DNA of 64,000 bases. Source: Betaproteobacteria bacterium. GTDB lineage: Bacteria > Pseudomonadota > Gammaproteobacteria > Burkholderiales > JACQAP01. Under the pieces are notes generated by a model. The model made no database searches. It was given only the letters and a program-made list of their open reading frames with translations, and was not told where the DNA came from. The position numbers and the translations under genes were made by a program. Location of the stretch: assembly GCA_016194905.1 (NCBI GenBank), contig JACQAP010000008.1:310001-374000 (forward strand), given 5' to 3'. Every line of letters starts with the position of its first letter. The stretch's first letter is position 1. Of this stretch, positions 13,607-58,253 are shown one piece after another.

Positions 13607-14728
13607 TCACTCGCGGATTTCATAGCGACGCATGAAGCGCCGGTCGATCCAGTTTTTCCATCGCCAGACCCAGTCGCCCTGCAGTGCCAGATCGCCGCGC
13701 GAGGCGATGGCATGGCGATCGCCGGTGGTGATCAAAGCCAATGCATGGCGCTGCGGCTGCCACGCGACGGGTGGCAGGTCTTGCAAGGCGCGTCGCAGGT
13801 TGTGCTCGAGCGGCGGTCCGGCGCGCACGGCGAATACGCCGGATTTTGGCCGCGGATGGTTTCTCATCGTGGCGATATCGCCGGCGGCAAACACGCCCGG
13901 ATGCGAGACCGACTGCAGCTCATCGTTCACCAGGATGAAGCCGCGGTCGTCGGTGGCCAGTCCGACCGAGCGGGGCCACAGCGATGGCGAGGCACCGGTG
14001 GCCCACGCGATCAGTTCGGTCGCAATCGCCGCACCGTCGTGCAATTGCAATCGCCCCCGATCCACGCGCTCGACCCAGCTGTTGAGCCGCAGTCTGACCC
14101 CGCGAGCTTCCAGCACGCGTTTCAGGATCGCGCGTGCAGACGCATTGTGGCCGGGGAGGAGATCGGGGCCGTCGCCGACGAGCTCGAATTCCGGCCGCAG
14201 GGTGGGCGCGATCTCGCGCAACCGATGTTGCATCGACAACAGCACTTCGGCTCCTGCAGCACCCGCGCCCACCATGGCGATATGGCGGGGCGCACGGCCG
14301 GCCGCCGCCATGCGGCAGACCTCCTCCCATTCCGCCATGAAGCGATCTATCGGTCTGACCGCCAGTGCGTGCTCGATCGCACCCGGCGTTTCCAGCGCGG
14401 GCGAGCGGTTGCCGATATCCACGGACACGAGGTCGAACGGCAGGGTCTGCCCGTTCTCGCAAAATACCAGGCGCGCGTCCGGATTGATGCCGTTGCAAGA
14501 CGTCTGCAACCAGCGGCAGCGGGCGAAGCGGGCCAGCCGCGCCAGGTCGATGTGACAATCGTTTCGCGTGTAGTGTCCGGCTATCCAGCCGGGCAACATG
14601 CCGGAATAAGGCGTATCCGGGTGCGGACTCACCAGGACGAGTTCCGCGCGCGCCGGCGGCTGCACGCCGAAGCGGCGCAACACTTCCACGTGAGCGTGTC
14701 CGCCGCCGATCAATACAAGGCGCTTCAT
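13607..14728 (-). CDS. NAD(P)/FAD-dependent oxidoreductase, SelD-N-terminal type
   Basis: A 373-residue two-dinucleotide-fold flavoprotein related to NDH-2 and to the domain fused N-terminally to some SelD proteins (the 'Nterm_to_SelD' family, TIGR03169 by memory). Visible features are IGGGHAHVEVLRRF at the N-terminus, the second nucleotide fold MVGAGAAGAEVLLS near residue 150, and GVFAAGDIATM near 285. The start overlaps the DUF3047 stop (ATGA), so it is the last gene of the nine-gene operon. The quinone- or disulfide-reducing partner is unknown. Its presence suggests a redox step in the organoarsenic or selenium-related pathway (inference). Confidence 0.78.
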   Translation of the reverse strand: MKRLVLIGGGHAHVEVLRRFGVQPPARAELVLVSPHPDTPYSGMLPGWIAGHYTRNDCHIDLARLARFARCRWLQTSCNGINPDARLVFCENGQTLPFDLVSVDIGNRSPALETPGAIEHALAVRPIDRFMAEWEEVCRMAAAGRAPRHIAMVGAGAAGAEVLLSMQHRLREIAPTLRPEFELVGDGPDLLPGHNASARAILKRVLEARGVRLRLNSWVERVDRGRLQLHDGAAIATELIAWATGASPSLWPRSVGLATDDRGFILVNDELQSVSHPGVFAAGDIATMRNHPRPKSGVFAVRAGPPLEHNLRRALQDLPPVAWQPQRHALALITTGDRHAIASRGDLALQGDWVWRWKNWIDRRFMRRYEIRE

Positions 14729-15468
14729 CGGTCTTCGACCGATTTCAGAAAACGGATATCGCCATAGAAGGCGACAGCGGACTCGCCGGTATTGTCGGTA
14801 TCGGTGGCCACGGCTACTCCGGTTACCTGAGGCGGATCTTCGCCGAAGGCGGCACGGAAATCGTCGACGATATTGCGCCTCACTGTGACCCACTGGTTCA
14901 GATGCGCTTCACCGCTTTCGGCAACGATGATCCGTACGCGGTCGGTGTAGGGACTCCACGTGGCCGCACCCTTGATGGACTTGCCGTCCCACACGTAGCA
15001 CAGCACCGCGAGCGGAACATCTTCGCCGAAGAGCGCGCGCGCGACCCGGATTTTCGCGCGCGTGGCAAACGGCAGCCGGGCGATGTCGTAATCGAATAGC
15101 ACGTAGAACCGTGCCGGGAAATCATCGCCGGCCTTGGTGGCGATGTTCGATTTTCGCAGCAAGTGGGCGATCTTCCAGCGCCATTCGACGACCGGATGGT
15201 CGCGCGGATCGAAATGCAGCGGGTGCATCACGCTCGCCATCGAGGCGTCGGCATCGGCGCGCAGCACGGTCTTGTCCGCGTCGAGCACCAGCGAGTAACG
15301 CGTCGGCTTCTTGATCTTCGCCAGCGTGACGAGCTTCCAGGGGGCCGGCAGCGGATCGCCGGATTTCGCGGAAGAGAAGCGCACGATCGCGGCTTGCTCG
15401 TTTGCCGCATCGACGCAAGTCAGGCTGCCCGCGACCGCGAGTACCACAACCGCGATGCGACGGCTCAA
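14725..15468 (-). CDS. DUF3047 exported protein
   Basis: A 247-residue protein of unknown function with an N-terminal signal-like segment (RRIAVVVLAVAGSL) and a DUF3047 body, recognised by VVEWRWKI, FYVLFDYD and VLCYVWDGK. The likely start is TTG 15468, inside TTGA shared with the stop of the preceding glycosyltransferase; no ATG or better start follows before the signal sequence. DUF3047 proteins are envelope proteins, so this would place part of the pathway in the periplasm. Confidence 0.78.
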   Translation of the reverse strand: MSRRIAVVVLAVAGSLTCVDAANEQAAIVRFSSAKSGDPLPAPWKLVTLAKIKKPTRYSLVLDADKTVLRADADASMASVMHPLHFDPRDHPVVEWRWKIAHLLRKSNIATKAGDDFPARFYVLFDYDIARLPFATRAKIRVARALFGEDVPLAVLCYVWDGKSIKGAATWSPYTDRVRIIVAESGEAHLNQWVTVRRNIVDDFRAAFGEDPPQVTGVAVATDTDNTGESAVAFYGDIRFLKSVEDR

Positions 15469-16115
15469 GATTGACCGCCCGGTTCTGCGTTCGCAATCCA
15501 GCCTTCGCGCACCAGCCGTTGATAGTCTTCCGGGCGATCCAGATCCCAGTGAGTCGGCAGTTCGTGCCAGCGCCAGCCGAGATTGCGCAGGCGTTGACGG
15601 GTCTCCTCCATGACGATGTCGGTCCCCCAGGTCATCGCGTCGAACAACGCCGGCATCGCGTGCGTCAGGCCGATCAGCGTGTAGCCGCCGTCCTCCGCCG
15701 GGCAGAACACGGCGTGGCGGCCATCGCGAAGCGCGCGCACGGCGGTCCACAGGTCCGCCGCGGTCAGGGAGGGGCAGTCGCTGCCCGTGAGTAGCACGTG
15801 CCGCGAACGGCCGAGCGCATTCTCGAAGGCATCGAGCATGCGCATGCCGAGATCGCCCTTGCATTGCGGATGCAGTTCGGCCTTGAAACGCTCGTGACAG
15901 GCGTGGAAGAAAGCATCGTCGGTCGAAGGCGTGCACCACAGTTCGACGGGACCGATTCCCGATTCATGAGCCACCGCCAGCGCGTGTTCTGTCAGCGCGC
16001 GGTGCAGCGCCGCCGCGCCGTGTGCGCCGAGCAGCGGGATCAGCCGAGTCTTGACATTGCCGGGAACCGGCGCGCGCGCGAATATCAGGAGGCTGCTTTC
16101 ATTTCTCGCGGCCAT
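15465..16115 (-). CDS. TIGR04282-family glycosyltransferase (arsenosugar type)
   Basis: A 216-residue CofC-like nucleotidyl/glycosyl transferase. Visible are FARAPVPGNVKTRL at the start (family signature), TGSDCPSL near residue 105 and PAEDGGYTLIGL near 138. The family is named by annotation pipelines as an arsenosugar biosynthesis glycosyltransferase because it travels with ArsS; the reaction itself has not been shown to my knowledge. Start ATG 16115 overlaps the end of the upstream transferase by 17 bp. The next gene begins in its stop codon (TTGA). Confidence 0.85.
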   Translation of the reverse strand: MAARNESSLLIFARAPVPGNVKTRLIPLLGAHGAAALHRALTEHALAVAHESGIGPVELWCTPSTDDAFFHACHERFKAELHPQCKGDLGMRMLDAFENALGRSRHVLLTGSDCPSLTAADLWTAVRALRDGRHAVFCPAEDGGYTLIGLTHAMPALFDAMTWGTDIVMEETRQRLRNLGWRWHELPTHWDLDRPEDYQRLVREGWIANAEPGGQS

Positions 16116-16827
16116 GGTAGCGTTCAGCAAGACGGCGGGGTTCGGATCCGAGGAAATAAGCGAGTCGCAGCCGCCACATCAATAGAATGGTGCGCCATAT
16201 CCCGTTCTTTTCCCATCGCCGGGATGAAGCGACCAGGGTGACCGAGAGACAAAGAGGCGGGCCGGATTTCCGGAGTTGCCCGCTGAACGCCACGTCTTCC
16301 ATCAGCTCGATTTCGGGAAAACCGCCGCTCTGCTCGAACACCGTACGTTCGACAAACAATGCCTGATCACCGGTGCAGATGCCCGTCAGGCGCGAACGCA
16401 GGTTCATTGCGCGTTCGACGACCCGCAGCATAATGGCCGCGCCGGAGAGCCGCACGTCGAAGCGGCCCCAGCGCCGCCGTGAAGAGGCGAGGCCGTTCAG
16501 GATCGAATGATCGGCATGTTCGGGAAGCGTGCAATCCGCATGCAGAAACAACAGGACGTCGCCAGCGCAAACGGCTGCGCCTGCATTCATCTGCGACGCA
16601 GGGCCGCGCCGGGCGGAAATGACCCGGTCCACCAGCGGGGTGGCCGCGGCCACGGTCCCGTCACGGCTGCCGCCGTCGGCGAGAATCAACTCGACCCCGC
16701 GCTCGCGCAGCCGCTGCAGCGGCTGGAGAAACGAAACAATGCCCGGCGCCTCGTTCAGCGTCGGTACGACGATGGAAAGGCTCGCCGGTTTGACCTCACG
16801 CCTCACGCCTTTCGCCTCACGCCTCAC
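16099..16827 (-). CDS. TIGR04283-family glycosyltransferase (arsenosugar type)
   Basis: A GT2-fold glycosyltransferase of about 242 residues. Motifs: LSIVVPTLNEAPGI, DGGSRDGTV, GPASQMNAGA, LFLHADC (DxD-like) and GGFPEIELMEDVAFS. TIGR04283 is a partner of TIGR04282 in ArsS clusters. The start is GTG 16827 in GTGA shared with the DUF547 stop. The first dozen codons are read from a 7-bp tandem repeat, so the N-terminus VRREAKGVRREV is repeat-derived; an alternative GTG at 16806 would remove half of it. Confidence 0.85.
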   Translation of the reverse strand: MRREAKGVRREVKPASLSIVVPTLNEAPGIVSFLQPLQRLRERGVELILADGGSRDGTVAAATPLVDRVISARRGPASQMNAGAAVCAGDVLLFLHADCTLPEHADHSILNGLASSRRRWGRFDVRLSGAAIMLRVVERAMNLRSRLTGICTGDQALFVERTVFEQSGGFPEIELMEDVAFSGQLRKSGPPLCLSVTLVASSRRWEKNGIWRTILLMWRLRLAYFLGSEPRRLAERYHGREK

Positions 16828-16828
16828 T
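16794..16828. repeat. 7-bp tandem repeat (cctcacg), 5 units, inside a gene start
   Basis: Units cctcacg, cctcacg, cctttcg, cctcacg, cctcact lie exactly at the DUF547 stop / TIGR04283 start. On the minus strand each unit supplies a GTG and the array is translated as the transferase N-terminus. Confidence 0.75.
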
Positions 16829-17621
16829 TCTTGTCGTTCAGCGCCCAGTCGTAATCCAGGAATTCGAGTTTGGCTTTCCGGTCGCGGATCGTCTGCTGGA
16901 CCTTCGGTTCGTCGGCGAGCTTGTCGGCGTACCGCGCCAACCAGGCCTCCACCGATCCCGACCGCGCCGCGAAATCCTTGCCGTACCAATCGAAAATCTT
17001 TGACATTTCGAGCCTGCCGCCCTGGTCGTTGAAACGGTTGCGTGAGCGGTCGGAGAGAAAACGCACGACGCTGTCTTCGAACTGCGCGTCCAGCTTGTCC
17101 GCGACGTAAGCCTCGTCGCGCAGCGCCGGGCAGCCGATCGAAGCGCAATTCAGCGCCATATGAATGCGGGCTTCGTCGAAGCTGCCTGGCGCGCGGATCA
17201 TGCCTTGCTCGATATCGTCGAGGCCGTGCTCCTTGCCGAGCAGGGTGAAGAACTTCTTCTTCCACGGACTTCTGATCAGCGAACCGAGATCCTTGATCGA
17301 TTTCACCTCCGGGTATCCGGTCAGGATAAGCTCGACGGTGAACGCGTTATAGGCGTTGATCAGGAAAGCGAGCTTCTGCGATTTGCTCCAGCCGTCGTAA
17401 TCCGCCTGGTTCACCGAGGAGACGCCGCCCAGATAGGCCTTGAGCGCCTGGCGATCGGCCTGAAAACCCTTGTAGTCGACCTGGGACGCATGCCCTCCGG
17501 GCAGCCAGACGACATGTTTTTTTGTCAGGGCGTCCCATTGCGCATGCGAGTGGTCGAATGCATGCGCAGGAAAAAAAGGAATCAGCGAAAGCAGCGTCAC
17601 GAATAGAAATTTGCGGATCAT
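16824..17621 (-). CDS. DUF547 exported protein
   Basis: A 265-residue protein with a clear signal peptide (FLFVTLLSLIPFFPAHA, cleavage near residue 21). DUF547 is recognised by SQKLAFLINAYNAF, the HMALNCASIGCPAL segment with two conserved cysteines, and a C-terminal AWLARYADKL. The domain resembles thiol-protease or transglutaminase-like folds but its function is unknown. DUF547 genes recur near ArsS-type radical SAM genes. It follows the flavoprotein-fusion gene after 56 bp, the only sizeable gap inside the operon, and that gap is filled by a heptamer repeat. Confidence 0.87.
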   Translation of the reverse strand: MIRKFLFVTLLSLIPFFPAHAFDHSHAQWDALTKKHVVWLPGGHASQVDYKGFQADRQALKAYLGGVSSVNQADYDGWSKSQKLAFLINAYNAFTVELILTGYPEVKSIKDLGSLIRSPWKKKFFTLLGKEHGLDDIEQGMIRAPGSFDEARIHMALNCASIGCPALRDEAYVADKLDAQFEDSVVRFLSDRSRNRFNDQGGRLEMSKIFDWYGKDFAARSGSVEAWLARYADKLADEPKVQQTIRDRKAKLEFLDYDWALNDKK

Positions 17622-17633
17622 GATTTAGTATTT

Positions 17634-17675
17634 TCCCTAGCCCCTAGCCCCTAGCCCCTAGCCCCTAGCCCCTCG
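17634..17675. repeat. 7-bp tandem repeat (cccctag), 6 units
   Basis: Six near-perfect heptamers fill the gap between two operon genes. The array ends in ccctcgcgc, the same end as the related array at 45413-45559. Confidence 0.9.
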
Positions 17676-17677
17676 CG

Positions 17678-19813
17678 CTATCCTCGCATCCAGGCATGAT
17701 AGCGCTCCACCCACTTCAGCAGCCCCTGCGGCGCGTGTGCGCGTTTCCAGTTGCCGGCGACGTACTTGTTGGCCTCGGCCATCGTCGGGTAGATATGGAT
17801 GGTGCCGAGCACTTTGTTCAGGCCGATGCCGTGGCGCATTGCCATGATGTATTCGGCAATCAGGTCGCCGGCATGTTCCCCGACGATGGTCACGCCCAGG
17901 ATCTTGTCCTTTCCCGGCACGGTCAACACTTTGACCAGCCCGTGCGCCTCCGAATCGGCGATCGCGCGATCCAGATCGTCGATGCCATAAGTCGTCACCT
18001 CGTAAGCGATGTTTTTCTCCCGCGCTTCGGTTTCGTTGAGACCGACGCGGGCGACTTCCGGTTCGGTGAAGGTCGCCCAGGGAATGACGCTGTAGTCGGC
18101 CCGGAATTTCCTTAAGCCTCCGAACAGCGCGTTGACTGCCGCATACCAAGCCTGATGTGACGCGGTATGGGTGAACTGATACGGCCCGGCCACGTCGCCG
18201 CAGGCATAGATGTTCGGATAAATGGTCTGCAGAAAATCGTTGGTTTCGACGGTGCGTTGTTTGGTGACGGGAATGCCGAGTTCTTCCAGGCCGTAGCCCG
18301 CGGTATTGGCGACACGGCCCACCGCGACCAGCACCGCGTCGAAGGCGATGCGAATCTCCCGGCCTTCGTGTTCGCAGACTAGGATTTTCTCGCCGTTCTC
18401 GACCAGGAATTGCCTGGCCTTGTGCTCGAGCTTCACGTCCACGCCTTCGGCGCGAAAGCGTGCCAATACCATTTCGGAAATCTCCGGGTCCTCGCGAATC
18501 ATGATCCGCGGCAGCATTTCCACTTGCGTGACTGTCGAGCCGAAGCGGGCGAACGCCTGCGTCAGTTCGCAGCCGATCGGCCCGCCGCCGAGAACCACCA
18601 GCCGGGCCGGGAGCCGGCGCAGATTCCATACGGTATCCGACGTGAAGTAGCCGGCCTGCTCGATGCCGGCGATGGGCGGCACGAACGGGCGCGCACCGGC
18701 GGCGATGACGATCGCCCGCGTGGTCAACACGTTTCCGTTTACCCGCACTTCCCACGGCGACAGGATTTTCGCTTCGCCCTGGATGCACTCCACGCCCAGG
18801 CCGGTATAGCGCTCCGCGGAATCGTGCGGTTCGACCTCGCCGATCACGCGCTGCACCCGCTCCATCACGTCGGCGAATTCGTAATCGGCCCTGGCCTCGC
18901 GCATGCCGAATTCCGCCGCGCGTTTGACGTGCGACAGGAATTTGGCCGATCGGATCAGTGCCTTCGACGGCACGCAGCCGGTATTCAGGCAATCGCCGCC
19001 CATGCGGTGCATCTCTATCAGGGTGACCTTGGCTTTCACCGCGGCCGCAATGTAGGAAGACACCAGGCCTGCGGATCCGGCGCCGATCACGATGACGTTG
19101 CAATCGAAGCGGCGCGGACGCCGGAAGCGTGCGTAAACCTTGCGCGCCTTCACGAGTTCGAGGACTTTCTTCGCGATCAGCGGAAAAAGGCCGAGCAGAG
19201 TAAAGGATGCGAGCAGGGTCGGCGACAGGATTCCTGAAAGGCGATCGATCTTGGCGATCTCGGTGCCGGCATTGACGTAGACAATGGTGCCCGCCAGCAT
19301 GCCGAGTTGGCTGATCCAGTAGAAGGTCGGGATCCGGATCGGCGTCAATCCCATGACCAGGTTGATGACGAAAAACGGGAAGGCCGGAACCAGCCGCAGC
19401 GTAAACAGGTAGAAGGCGCCGTCCTTCTCGATGCCGGCGTTGATCGCCCTGAGCTTGTCGCCGAATTTTGCCTGTACCGAATCCTTCAGCACAAAGCGCG
19501 AAGCCAGGAATGACAGCGTCGCGCCGATGCTGGAAGCGAAGGACACGATGATCGTGCCCCACAGCAGTCCGAATATGGCCCCCGCGGCGAGCGTCATGAT
19601 GGTGGCTCCGGGAAGGGACAGGCCGGTTACCGCCACGTAGACCAGAAAGAACGCCGCCACGGTTTGCAGTGGATTGCTCCCGTAATACGCGTCGATCGCG
19701 GCCTGCTGAGATTTAAGATAGCCCAGGCTGAAGTACTGCCCCAGGTCGAACACGAAATACGCGGCCACCAGCACCGCGATCAGCACGACTAACAGCCATC
19801 TGCCTTTAGTCAC
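17678..19813 (-). CDS. TVP38/TMEM64 membrane domain fused to mercuric-reductase-like flavoprotein
   Basis: A 711-residue fusion. Residues 1-235 form a polytopic TVP38/DedA-like (SNARE-associated) membrane domain (GATIMTLAAGAIFG, LRLVPAFPFFVINLVMG). Residues 240-711 are a class I pyridine-nucleotide disulfide oxidoreductase: GAGSAG near 245, redox-active pair C275/C280 in CLNTGCVPSK, NAD fold GGGPIGCE, FAD-binding YACGDVAG, and a dimerisation domain ending in IHIYPTMAE. There is no N-terminal metal-binding MerA domain. The start is GTG 19813, overlapping the phosphoesterase end by 8 bp. Within an arsenic cluster it could reduce a pentavalent arsenical or disulfide at the membrane (inference). 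Confidence 0.9.
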   Translation of the reverse strand: MTKGRWLLVVLIAVLVAAYFVFDLGQYFSLGYLKSQQAAIDAYYGSNPLQTVAAFFLVYVAVTGLSLPGATIMTLAAGAIFGLLWGTIIVSFASSIGATLSFLASRFVLKDSVQAKFGDKLRAINAGIEKDGAFYLFTLRLVPAFPFFVINLVMGLTPIRIPTFYWISQLGMLAGTIVYVNAGTEIAKIDRLSGILSPTLLASFTLLGLFPLIAKKVLELVKARKVYARFRRPRRFDCNVIVIGAGSAGLVSSYIAAAVKAKVTLIEMHRMGGDCLNTGCVPSKALIRSAKFLSHVKRAAEFGMREARADYEFADVMERVQRVIGEVEPHDSAERYTGLGVECIQGEAKILSPWEVRVNGNVLTTRAIVIAAGARPFVPPIAGIEQAGYFTSDTVWNLRRLPARLVVLGGGPIGCELTQAFARFGSTVTQVEMLPRIMIREDPEISEMVLARFRAEGVDVKLEHKARQFLVENGEKILVCEHEGREIRIAFDAVLVAVGRVANTAGYGLEELGIPVTKQRTVETNDFLQTIYPNIYACGDVAGPYQFTHTASHQAWYAAVNALFGGLRKFRADYSVIPWATFTEPEVARVGLNETEAREKNIAYEVTTYGIDDLDRAIADSEAHGLVKVLTVPGKDKILGVTIVGEHAGDLIAEYIMAMRHGIGLNKVLGTIHIYPTMAEANKYVAGNWKRAHAPQGLLKWVERYHAWMRG

Positions 19814-20810
19814 CGCAGGTCCTCCGTTGCCTGTTTCCGAGCGCTTGGTCGATCGTGAAGGCCGGACCTGACACGATTCGGCGGAAATAGGAAGAATGCG
19901 CCGGCGATCCCTCCGGCCAGTCGGCCAGAAAATTTCTCAACCACAGGGCGTGGTCGTAGTCGAGCCTCAGCGCATCGATGAATGCGCCGTCGATGCGGCT
20001 GCCGTAGAGCGTCCGTCCAGCCGGTGCCGGCGTGAGACCAATACGGGTGATGACGCCGTATTGCGCACCGGAAAAATTGGGCATGCCGGCCGCTCCATTG
20101 TTTATCACCGCTGCCGTCCCACCGGGAAGATCGAATTCGTGTAATGCCGGAAGACAGGTATGGCTGCAGGCGAAGACGCGCACGTTTGCGCGCCGGAACC
20201 AGTCGCCGAATTTCGAATGGTTGCGCTCGTCGGCAAGCGCGTCGTGGGCGAATCCCCAGCCGGCGAGCGACTCCGCGTCGCCGTGCACGACGCCAACGCT
20301 GATGCCGCCGACTTCCACCGTCATTTGCATTGGCAGTTGCAGCAGCCGTTCTGCGATGTCGGGAACATCCCGCGCCGTGCGCCGCAACCGTTCGATGATC
20401 CGATTGGAAAATTCGACTTCCGCGTCGGCGACGTCATCGGGGTAGGCGCAGCCGCAGCCGGCACCGGCATCGTCGCCGGCGATTTCGGTCTCGACGTTGC
20501 CGCGCAACGCAAGGTGTTCGAGCACGGTCTCGTTGATCTGCCGGAATCCGCCGGGGTCGACATTGAACCAGTTGAAATCGCCGTTGAACACGAACTGCGG
20601 CGACATGGACTCGCGGCTCGCAAGTGCCCGCAAGGCCGAGAGCGCCGGAAGGTTGCCGTACAGGCCGCCGATCACGTACAGGGTATCCGCGTGGATTACA
20701 GGCGCGCGGTCGAGCGCTTCCGGCGCATAGCGGTAGTGCAGCGGGCAACTGCGTCCCGGCGACAGGGTGCTCGCGGAGCGCGCCCCGGATTGGATATCAG
20801 CCGGATTCAT
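19806..20810 (-). CDS. Metallophosphoesterase family protein
   Basis: A 334-residue calcineurin-like phosphoesterase. Metal-site motifs are present in degenerate form: GGLYGNLPAL near residue 48, FNGDFNWF near 74, LRGNVE near 105, VVHGD near 173 and CSHTCLP near 212. The first motif lacks the usual D-x-H at its start (VIGGLYGN instead of a D-H-G-N type), so some ligands may differ. Start ATG overlaps the symporter stop (ATGA). A role in dephosphorylating a phospho-sugar or phosphoglycerol intermediate is a reasonable guess from context. Confidence 0.8.
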   Translation of the reverse strand: MNPADIQSGARSASTLSPGRSCPLHYRYAPEALDRAPVIHADTLYVIGGLYGNLPALSALRALASRESMSPQFVFNGDFNWFNVDPGGFRQINETVLEHLALRGNVETEIAGDDAGAGCGCAYPDDVADAEVEFSNRIIERLRRTARDVPDIAERLLQLPMQMTVEVGGISVGVVHGDAESLAGWGFAHDALADERNHSKFGDWFRRANVRVFACSHTCLPALHEFDLPGGTAAVINNGAAGMPNFSGAQYGVITRIGLTPAPAGRTLYGSRIDGAFIDALRLDYDHALWLRNFLADWPEGSPAHSSYFRRIVSGPAFTIDQALGNRQRRTCGD

Positions 20811-22198
20811 CCGGGGATGGCTGCGCGTTTACGCAGCCACAACGGCAGCAGGAAGCCGGCGAAACACAGGATCAGGCCGTAGAGATTGGTTCCCAGCAGC
20901 AGCGCGTACTTGCCGCCGCCGATGGCCCAGGAATTGGGTATCCAGCCCAGCGTAAACAGCACGCCGAGCACGATCCCGGTCCAGAACGACAGGTGAAAGG
21001 AAAGCGGCGAATAGCGGGTGAAGCCAGCCAGCAGGAACACCGGCGCGAGGCCCATGACCATGGTGCCGCTGACGGTCGTGGCCTTGAGGATGTCGGTGCC
21101 GGCGATCATGGGCAGGTTGCCGATGACCGCGAACACGACCATGGTCCATGCGCCGATGCGGACCACGTTCGCACCGGGCATGCGTCCGCGCAACATCGGT
21201 AGTTCCTGCGCCACCAGCTTGGACAGCGATGCGAACGTGGAATCCACGGTCGATCCGCCGGCAACGATCATCACCACGGTCATGACGAAAGTGGCGGCGA
21301 TACCGAAGCCCTGGGCGACCGCCGCCGGCACGTTGTCGGTGTGCGGCAGACCTTCGAGGCGCGCATGCACGCCGACCAGGCTGAAGGCGAGGATGCAGAG
21401 GAAGCCGATCGTGCCGGACCAGATGAAAGCCTTGAGCATCGGCTTTTCTTGCGTGATGAAGCCACGATCGGTGAGCACCGGGTCATGGAACGGATAGGAA
21501 AGCACTTGCAGGAGTGCGACCAGCAGCAGATCCACGCCCGCGTTCATGCGAAAGTCCCCATTCGAGAGCAAGGCGGACGGGCCGTGGCTGGGCAGCACGT
21601 AGAACAGGACGATGCCGAGAAACAGTATGAATACTGCGGATTGCAGCACGTCGGTGATGATCGAACTGCGCAATCCGCCCTTGACGGCGTAAAGCAGGGT
21701 GACCGCGGTAAACAGCAACGCGGAGCCGATGAACGCCGCGCTTCCCGGCGGCCCGAAGTAGCCGCCGACCACGGCGGTGTTGCTCCAGACTTCGTTGTAC
21801 AGGCGGATCAGAATTGCGAGCGTAAAGGCGATGGCGGCTGCGCGGCCATACTTGCCGACCAGAAAGGCGACCAGTCCGGTGGCACCGTGGTGTGTGCGCA
21901 GGCGGTAGATGACCCATCCGGCGAGCGGGATCGACAACCAGTAGGCGGCATAGGCCAGTCCGCCCACCACGCCGTACGCCGCGCCGAGGTTGGCCGCATT
22001 GGTGACCGACTTGGCGAATATCCAACTGATAAAAATGCTCGCGGTGAGCATCCACTGGGACGCGGCGCGCCCAGCGTTGTCGGTGCCGCGGAAAAAACTG
22101 GTGATGCCGACAGCGGTCGGTGTCATGGCGTACATGACTCCACCGTAAAGCAGCAGCACACCCCAGAAATAAATGCCGAAGTTCGCGTCGAGCGTCAT
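20807..22198 (-). CDS. Sodium:solute symporter family transporter
   Basis: A 463-residue membrane protein with about 13 hydrophobic segments. SSS-family features include WMLTASIFISWIFAKSV near residue 48, the RLYNEVWSNTAVVGGYFG segment near 137, and GGSTVDSTFASLSKLVA near 315, which carries the small-residue sodium-site pattern. It follows arsS by 24 bp and is coupled to the phosphoesterase by ATGA. The solute is unknown; the neighbourhood suggests an organoarsenical, a precursor or a pathway product. Confidence 0.85.
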   Translation of the reverse strand: MTLDANFGIYFWGVLLLYGGVMYAMTPTAVGITSFFRGTDNAGRAASQWMLTASIFISWIFAKSVTNAANLGAAYGVVGGLAYAAYWLSIPLAGWVIYRLRTHHGATGLVAFLVGKYGRAAAIAFTLAILIRLYNEVWSNTAVVGGYFGPPGSAAFIGSALLFTAVTLLYAVKGGLRSSIITDVLQSAVFILFLGIVLFYVLPSHGPSALLSNGDFRMNAGVDLLLVALLQVLSYPFHDPVLTDRGFITQEKPMLKAFIWSGTIGFLCILAFSLVGVHARLEGLPHTDNVPAAVAQGFGIAATFVMTVVMIVAGGSTVDSTFASLSKLVAQELPMLRGRMPGANVVRIGAWTMVVFAVIGNLPMIAGTDILKATTVSGTMVMGLAPVFLLAGFTRYSPLSFHLSFWTGIVLGVLFTLGWIPNSWAIGGGKYALLLGTNLYGLILCFAGFLLPLWLRKRAAIPG

Positions 22199-22222
22199 GA
22201 ACCTGGTCCCCGAATGCGTGAT

Positions 22223-23188
22223 TTATGAGTTCAGCGCGCCGCCGCAGGAGGAGCCCTGTCCCGCGGTGCAGCCGAAGCAATGGTCGCGCACGACGATCGG
22301 ATTGCCTTCGAGGTCCTTGCCGATGAGATCGGCGAGATGGACGCGCGGCTTGCCCGCCACGTGCAGGGGCAGGCCGAGCATCTGGTTGAAGTCGCAGTCG
22401 TAAACATAGCCTTTCCAGTCCACGGAAAGCAGGGAGCGGCACATGACGGCGTCGAGGTTTTCTGCCTGGTAGGCGTCCTTCAGCAGCCGCATATAGCCGT
22501 TGAACTGGCCCTTGGATATCAGCGTGCTGCCGAAGCGCTGGATCGGCATGTTGGTCAGCGTAAAAAGCCGGTTGAATTCGATCCCATAGCCGCCGCCCAG
22601 ATGGCGGCGGTATTCGATTTCCAGCTTCGCCTGCGAAGGTGGCAGCGACGGCCCCTGCGGGTTGTACACGAGGTCGAGCGTCATGCCGGTTTCCGGCTTG
22701 CCGTAGCCCAGGGCATTGAGGCGCCGCAAGGCGCGGATGCTGATTTCGAACACGCCGTCACCGCGCTGGCGGTCGACATTGTCTTCGAGATAACACGGCA
22801 TCGAAGCCACCACCTTGACCTCGTTCGAAGCGAGAAACCGGGCGAGATCCTCGAAGCCGGGTTCCTCGAGGATGGTCAGGTTGCAGCGGTCGATGACCTC
22901 GATCCCGAGCCGGCGGGCCTCCGTTACCAGAGTGCGGAAGTGCGGATTGAGTTCGGGTGCGCCGCCGGTGATGTCGAGCGTGCACGTGACGGAGCCGCTC
23001 AGGAAGCGGATCACGGTGTCCACGGTTTCCAGATCCATCATTTCGGTGCGCTTGGGGCCGGCATTCACGTGGCAATGCACGCAGCTCTGGTTGCATTTGT
23101 AACCGAGGTTGACCTGAAGCGTCTCCAGCCGCCTGCGATCAATGGCCGGAAATTGGAACTCGTTCATCAGGGGCAGCGTTGCGTGCAT
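22223..23188 (-). CDS. arsS: Arsenosugar biosynthesis radical SAM protein ArsS
   Basis: A 321-residue radical SAM enzyme of the ArsS family (TIGR04167), which in characterised cases joins the 5'-deoxyadenosyl group to dimethylarsenite in arsenosugar formation. The CxxxCxxC iron-sulfur motif is C32-NQS-C36-VH-C39, followed by TGGAPELNPHF. The family's Cys-rich C-terminus is intact (HCFGCTAGQGSSCGG near 302-316). Some relatives carry selenocysteine here; this one uses cysteines only and ends in TAA. ATG 23188 has GAGAGGA about 10 nt upstream. It is the first gene of the nine-gene operon running to 13607. No arsM lies in the window. Confidence 0.92.
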   Translation of the reverse strand: MHATLPLMNEFQFPAIDRRRLETLQVNLGYKCNQSCVHCHVNAGPKRTEMMDLETVDTVIRFLSGSVTCTLDITGGAPELNPHFRTLVTEARRLGIEVIDRCNLTILEEPGFEDLARFLASNEVKVVASMPCYLEDNVDRQRGDGVFEISIRALRRLNALGYGKPETGMTLDLVYNPQGPSLPPSQAKLEIEYRRHLGGGYGIEFNRLFTLTNMPIQRFGSTLISKGQFNGYMRLLKDAYQAENLDAVMCRSLLSVDWKGYVYDCDFNQMLGLPLHVAGKPRVHLADLIGKDLEGNPIVVRDHCFGCTAGQGSSCGGALNS

Positions 23189-57947: not shown

Positions 57948-58006
57948 GGCTCCAGCGCTGGCGAGGGCAGTCTTCGAACCAGTGCGGCCCAGCCGCACCG
58001 GGGATG

Positions 58007-58218
58007 CCCTCTCTGTCCGCTTTACCTGAGAGATTGGCGGCCTGCGTTCGACGGCGGGCCGCTTGCCCCTTCGGTGGGCCCACTCGATGCGGGCCTCTCT
58101 CCAGCGAGGAACGCTTCGACGGAAGCGTTTGTCAGTCCTTTAGCCTGAGCGTTCGTGCTCCCGCTACCAGCGGGCGCTGCGCCTTCGGCGGCTTCACGTG
58201 GAAGCGCTCTCCTGACGG
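58007..58218 (-). ncRNA. Tandem glycine riboswitch
   Basis: Two consecutive aptamers on the minus strand. Aptamer I runs 58218 to about 58125 with CAGGAGAG, CCGAAGGCGCA and CTCAGGCTAAAGGACTG. Aptamer II runs 58104 to 58007 with CTGGAGAG, CCGAAGGGGCAA and CTCTCAGGTAAAGCGGAC. A 20-nt linker joins them. It precedes gcvT by 60 bp and by analogy with known cases turns the operon on when glycine is abundant. Confidence 0.95.
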
Positions 58219-58223
58219 CGTCA

Positions 58224-58253
58224 AGTGTAGCAGCGACCGATGCCTTGCGTCGA
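58224..58253 (-). promoter_or_regulatory. Putative promoter of the gcv operon
   Basis: On the minus strand TACACT (-10, 58229-58224) and TCGACG (-35, 58253-58248) are 18 bp apart, and the expected start falls at the first base of aptamer I. The -35 is a poor match. Confidence 0.4.

Follow-up and report, generated by a model that had tools for sequence, protein, structure and literature searches.

The window analysed here is a stretch of 64,000 nucleotides of a Betaproteobacteria bacterium (assembly GCA_016194905.1, contig JACQAP010000008.1, positions 310,001 to 374,000). As a sequence-only reading had described, its minus strand is occupied between positions 13607 and 23188 by nine genes, the first of which is arsS. 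This gene (22223..23188) encodes a radical S-adenosylmethionine (SAM) enzyme of 321 amino acids (aa), which scores 458.9 bits with the ArsS model TIGR04167 (cut-off 300). It is followed by genes for a distant relative of the sodium:solute symporters (SSS/SLC5; 20807..22198, 463 aa) and for a protein with metallophosphoesterase fold (MPE-fold; 19806..20810, 334 aa). The fourth gene has a GTG start (17678..19813, 711 aa) and encodes a VTT (TVP38/DedA-type) membrane domain fused to a disulfide-oxidoreductase flavoprotein with the motifs CLNTGC and HIYPTMAE. Next come a DUF547 protein (16824..17621, 265 aa) with a hydrophobic, signal-peptide-like N-terminus and an NCASIGCP motif, a GT-A type transferase (TIGR04283; 16099..16827, 242 aa, or 235 aa from an alternative GTG at 16806; 259.2 bits, cut-off 182) and a CofC-like nucleotidyltransferase-fold protein (TIGR04282/DUF2064; 15465..16115, 216 aa; 202.9 bits, cut-off 134). 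The last two genes encode a DUF3047 protein (14725..15468, 247 aa, TTG start), also with a signal-peptide-like N-terminus, and a flavoprotein of the SelD-N-terminal type (TIGR03169; 13607..14728, 373 aa; 444.4 bits, cut-off 310). Pfam matches among the nine proteins were DUF3641, DUF547, DUF2064, DUF3047 and VTT with Pyr_redox_2.

Six of the eight junctions are overlaps, as had been listed before: ATGA (4 bp) between symporter and phosphoesterase, 8 bp between phosphoesterase and VTT/flavoprotein, GTGA (4 bp) between DUF547 and TIGR04283 if the latter starts at GTG 16827 (GTG 16806 is also possible), 17 bp between TIGR04283 and TIGR04282, TTGA (4 bp) between TIGR04282 and DUF3047, and ATGA (4 bp) between DUF3047 and SelD-N. 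The two remaining junctions are short gaps of 24 bp (arsS-symporter) and 56 bp (VTT/flavoprotein-DUF547). The family names given to the genes in the sequence-only reading are supported by profile matches; two are less secure, since the symporter is only distantly related to SSS proteins and the phosphoesterase has no Pfam match. At E 1e-6 the nine genes used as probes found no match elsewhere in the window. A scan for promoters and terminators yielded one promoter-like site (2.6 in shuffled sequences) and 12 terminator-like sites (8.8 in shuffled sequences), leaving the limits of the transcript unsupported.

In an alignment of 14 ArsS proteins Cys32, Cys36 and Cys39 (CxxxCxxC) as well as Cys250, Cys265, Cys304, Cys307 and Cys315 were invariant. 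By family score and cysteines the product of the first gene is an ArsS, and it is predicted to transfer an adenosyl group to arsenic. The association of arsS with the transferases was assessed in 399 genomes of the order (one draw), of which 119 had arsS at E <= 1e-50 and 122 had TIGR04283 above its cut-off. Both genes were found in 112 genomes, arsS alone in 7, TIGR04283 alone in 10, and neither in 270 (naive Fisher P 1.9e-77, relatedness ignored).

We also compared 160 arsS neighbourhoods, 80 of them from genomes (60 of the order, 8 of the class, 12 of the phylum) and 80 the best of at least 593 contig stretches. These loci represent the better arsS matches, are biased to close relatives and do not form a census. 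Partners were counted within 11 kb at the 136 loci with at least 8 kb of downstream sequence; the 24 loci with less were excluded, and one duplicate pair (L292 = L130) remains in the counts. At least one of the eight partners was present in 120 of the 136 neighbourhoods: TIGR04283 in 95, the VTT-flavoprotein in 93, TIGR04282 in 90, the MPE-fold gene in 42, DUF547 in 38, DUF3047 in 35, SelD-N in 31 and the symporter in 15. Both transferase genes are linked to arsS in the window and in relatives, and the gene order and short overlaps recur (e.g. L087, L135). A neighbourhood search for the same nine genes had been proposed as a check; it confirmed the linkage, and co-occurrence was not rare, but none of the 136 other neighbourhoods had the full set of nine; 11 had eight. 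A chance array was ruled out by the co-occurrence of arsS and TIGR04283 and by the recurring neighbourhoods.

In seven genomes with arsS on another contig (L171-L177) the VTT-flavoprotein, TIGR04283 and TIGR04282 genes stand together, accompanied by DUF547 in four, DUF3047 in two and SelD-N in four loci. The MPE-fold gene was found in none of the 20 TIGR04283 loci examined. Taken together with the position of the symporter beside arsS (see below), this suggests that the set comprises two modules: symporter and MPE-fold gene seem to travel with arsS and the other partners with the transferases. At L123, L124 and L125 a divergent ArsS (51-54% identity to that of the window) has none of the eight partners nearby; in each of these genomes the transferase block is on a different contig.

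The lack of arsM in the operon, noted earlier from the sequence, was confirmed and could be extended to the window genome (99.78% complete): none of the 18 matches to the ArsM model that were inspected has the full cysteine motifs. Published work accepted as ArsM only sequences with three or more of the four arsenic-binding cysteines (PMC5552862, excerpt). The best candidate of the genome (L002, G000:C5:301150-301758) scored 219.5 bits against a cut-off of 263, and carries GVG for the ArsM GCG and SNG for SNC, the third cysteine being kept (LWAACIGGA). With two arsenic-binding cysteines replaced, it was rejected as the missing ArsM. None of the other 17 matches had an SNC-type motif, although an ArsM unlike the model would escape. 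Relatives also have ArsM-like methyltransferases with GVG and SNG (L191, L193, L194). The view of the operon as a complete pathway is not supported: the nine genes include neither a methylation gene nor one for adenine removal, and none of the ArsM-model matches in the genome qualifies as ArsM by its cysteines. Because no ArsM was recognised in either, the methylated arsenic may come from outside.

Some relatives do have a recognisable ArsM. ArsM of three sequence types is encoded at most 11 kb from arsS in 34 of the 160 loci, and among the 399 genomes arsS was present in 18 of 24 with an L110-type arsM versus 101 of 375 without. A genome-level census covered 80 of the 119 arsS genomes, picked for completeness. 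ArsM was recognisable in 24 of them (7 above the NF008823 cut-off and 17 with the L110 type, with one genome common to the two groups, and 1 with the L213 type); 56 had none by these tests, in which the arsenosugar ArsM model was run on 40 genomes, all with arsS, and L213-type ArsM was possibly missed in others.

Five genomes without arsS carry, at six loci (L164-L169), a divergent TIGR04283 gene beside arsM and a different radical SAM gene. The latter follows arsM (L168:11512-12477, plus strand; same place in L164-L167 and L169) and encodes a 321 aa protein, which scores 48 bits with the ArsS model and 93 with the Rv1681 family and stays under the cut-off for all 25 models listed. It is 70-74% identical between loci, is without counterpart among the 160 arsS loci at E 1e-20, and may replace ArsS. 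The VTT-flavoprotein is kept in four of the six loci.

Because ArsM is found near arsS in relatives and arsM beside TIGR04283 in genomes lacking arsS, a role of the gene set unrelated to arsenic is unlikely. The co-occurrence counts, the neighbourhoods and the proximity of arsM to arsS bear out the earlier suggestion of a conserved, arsenic-linked set. The operon could in principle handle another element, such as selenium, its arsenic name being an inherited annotation. The SelD-N-type flavoprotein of the operon, a SelD in the genome and the lack of an Acr3 match would agree with this, but SelD adjoins a gene that we take to be tRNA 2-selenouridine synthase-like, an ordinary use outside the operon, and in relatives arsM accompanies arsS and the same transferases. 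We regard such a role as very improbable, no search for selenium genes near arsS having been made.

The profile matches of the symporter to the SSS family are weak: it scores 30.8 bits with TIGR00813 against a cut-off of 184 (E 1.5e-7), and reaches E 0.016 with Pfam SSF and E 6e-4 with SGLT1 chains. Its distribution was determined at E <= 1e-60 in 80 genomes (44 with arsS and 36 without), in which known carriers had been deliberately included. It was found in nine genomes, all among the 44 with arsS (0/36 without), and in all nine it directly adjoins arsS. On contig L260 it lies 4.1 kb downstream of arsS, not directly beside it.

For the phosphoesterase no Pfam model gave a match even at E 10. 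Its predicted structure (mean pLDDT, the predicted local distance difference test score, 90.7) has a metallophosphoesterase fold and matches 3qfm_B (Z 20.7, root-mean-square deviation 3.1, 237 aligned residues). The usual motifs of metallophosphoesterases are DxH (first motif GDxHGN), GNH and GHxH (GHTH). In the window protein the first metal motif reads GGLYGN (GGxYGN in 23 of 23 aligned homologues), the histidine of GNH is replaced by valine (GNVE), as seen in the alignment of the same homologues, and the counterpart of GHTH is SHTC. Asp78, Asn105, His176 and His217 are retained and invariant in the 23 homologues, and so are four cysteines, Cys22, Cys119, Cys121 and Cys219. The modelled fold is that of a metallophosphoesterase, while the DxH, GNH and GHxH motifs are not there. 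With several expected metal and catalytic residues missing, a phosphoester-cleaving step is doubtful. Perhaps it is not an ordinary phosphoesterase; one metal site may survive, and the thiols point to a soft metal or to arsenic in its trivalent form. It shares its fold with the SapH-type metallophosphoesterases (PDB 3qfm, 2gju, 3rqz), and differs from them by GGLYGN, the valine in place of the GNH histidine, SHTC and the four extra invariant cysteines.

Neither the symporter nor the MPE-fold gene was found at any arsM locus, 0 of 28 against 43 of 108 other loci (naive P 6e-6) and 0 of 34 when all 160 loci are taken. A transporter gene is present in ten of the 160 arsS loci (L102, L105, L114, L116, L117, L119, L121, L227, L234 and L276), each with arsM and none with a symporter or MPE-fold gene. 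This transporter is presumably a PiT-family phosphate transporter. We tentatively propose, as a rather doubtful possibility, that arsS operons have interchangeable input modules: either PiT and ArsM, for uptake and methylation of arsenate, or the symporter and the cysteine-bearing MPE-fold protein, for uptake and holding of an arsenical methylated by others. The window would represent the second arrangement.

We consider it fairly probable that the nine genes form an ArsS-centred operon for an arsenosugar-type organoarsenical, in an ArsM-less variant with a dedicated transporter and a cysteine-bearing MPE-fold protein. The operon probably builds sugar-linked arsenic compounds and may obtain its starting material by taking up a methylated arsenical. 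This arsenical, made by other organisms, would enter the cell possibly via the SSS-like symporter. Reduction to the trivalent form could be performed by the membrane VTT/flavoprotein, with its conserved C-X4-C disulfide and His-Glu pair; among 56 homologues of at least 500 aa CxxxxC is kept in all and HxxPTxxE in 54, and a C-terminal CC pair occurs in none. The invariant cysteines of the MPE-fold protein might hold the trivalent product. By analogy, and in keeping with its family score and cysteines, ArsS would then move a 5′-deoxyadenosyl group onto the arsenic, a transfer shown for other ArsS proteins (PMC12159101, excerpt). Adenine would be taken off by an unlinked nucleosidase or phosphorylase. 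Judging from fold and name, the TIGR04282 nucleotidyltransferase-fold protein and the TIGR04283 transferase could activate the arsenoribose and attach it to an acceptor, and the DUF547 protein, the DUF3047 protein and the second flavoprotein may complete the product or deal with it at the cell envelope.

The signal-like N-termini indicate that the DUF547 and DUF3047 proteins are probably exported. These two proteins and the membrane VTT domain would fit a product in the form of an envelope-linked arsenosugar lipid or glycoconjugate instead of a soluble arsenosugar, their place of action then being the membrane or the periplasm, and arsenolipids are mentioned as phosphate-sparing lipids (PMC5552862, excerpt). 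The DUF3047 model (mean pLDDT 90.6, mostly beta) has carbohydrate-binding modules among its weaker Foldseek matches, but all its matches are weak (listed template modelling scores by query length <=0.48), the best being ciliary proteins and a glucuronyl epimerase, and family searches recognised no lipid-handling enzyme among the nine. A product of this kind, which is compatible with the ArsM-less operon proposed above, appears unlikely.

Several observations weigh against the proposed ArsM-less operon fed from outside. The exclusion between arsM and the MPE-fold or symporter gene was not significant when relatedness was taken into account (median P 0.5, 8 independent pairs on a FastTree tree of ArsS), and a causal swap of arsM for these genes is therefore left unsettled. 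Of 49 genomes, 17 had ArsM and 32 did not; the MPE-fold gene was at the arsS locus in 3 and 18 of these, respectively (P 0.015, relatedness ignored). Two genomes with the symporter, G751 and G696, encode an ArsM at another place. No partner was found in 16 of the 136 neighbourhoods, including 9 of the 12 phylum-level loci (four of these with arsM); among the loci sampled, the set thus belongs mainly to the class. The missing Acr3 match also counts here: the genome showed no sign of arsenic handling beyond the operon, other ars genes not having been sought. Finally, the symporter was missing from 35 of the 44 searched genomes with arsS, and an L110-type ArsM from 101 of the 119 arsS genomes; uptake through this symporter is thus not the general answer.

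The same scarcity of symporters, and that of recognisable ArsM in the census, would be expected if ArsS of arsM-less genomes used inorganic or monomethyl arsenic directly, forming a new arsenoribose without the dimethyl group and needing no outside methyl donor. However, the window ArsS has the invariant columns of an alignment in which arsM-linked ArsS proteins (L110, L115, L119, L137) are included, no search aimed at substrate-specific differences having been made, and ArsM types unlike the models used may have escaped. Direct use seems to us distinctly unlikely.

The chemistry of ArsS and the ArsM-ArsS start of the pathway are already known (PMC12159101, PMC8552651, excerpts). The cyanobacterial ArsM-ArsS pathway (Synechocystis; same excerpts) shares with the window a TIGR04167 ArsS with radical SAM cysteines. 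The window differs from it by the lack of a recognised ArsM and by additional linked genes, among them those for the symporter and the cysteine-bearing MPE-fold protein; cyanobacterial neighbourhoods were outside this comparison. Among 14 control genomes only Synechococcus elongatus had TIGR04283 above the cut-off. The two NCBIfam arsenosugar transferases, TIGR04282 and TIGR04283, are both present in the window, above cut-off and adjacent; their reactions are predicted from the family name. A TIGR04282 gene is named in an Aromatoleum island (PMC8801600, excerpt), and "arsenosugar biosynthesis glycosyltransferase" genes are mentioned elsewhere (PMC13077682, excerpt). The arsinothricin cluster arsQML (PMC8552651, excerpt) resembles the operon as a small arsenic cluster that combines a transporter with a radical SAM enzyme for which C-As bond formation is predicted. 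In contrast to the operon, it has an ArsM, the group that ArsL is predicted to transfer is 3-amino-3-carboxypropyl, and ArsQ is an efflux permease. Elsewhere in the window (58003-58224, minus strand) there are two adjacent glycine riboswitch aptamers.

Three of the nine genes are already named by NCBIfam for arsenosugar synthesis. In the open-access literature, which leaves out most subscription papers, we found no account of the larger set of genes, of a symporter bound to arsS, of the MPE-fold protein with its cysteines or of the arsM-less pattern. The operon offers a definite and conserved set of candidate enzymes from proteobacteria for the arsenosugar steps after ArsS. It also suggests a testable idea, that in arsS bacteria without a recognised arsM methylated arsenic is a traded intermediate imported by a dedicated transporter. 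If true, interchangeable input modules would amount to a division of labour in arsenosugar-type synthesis.

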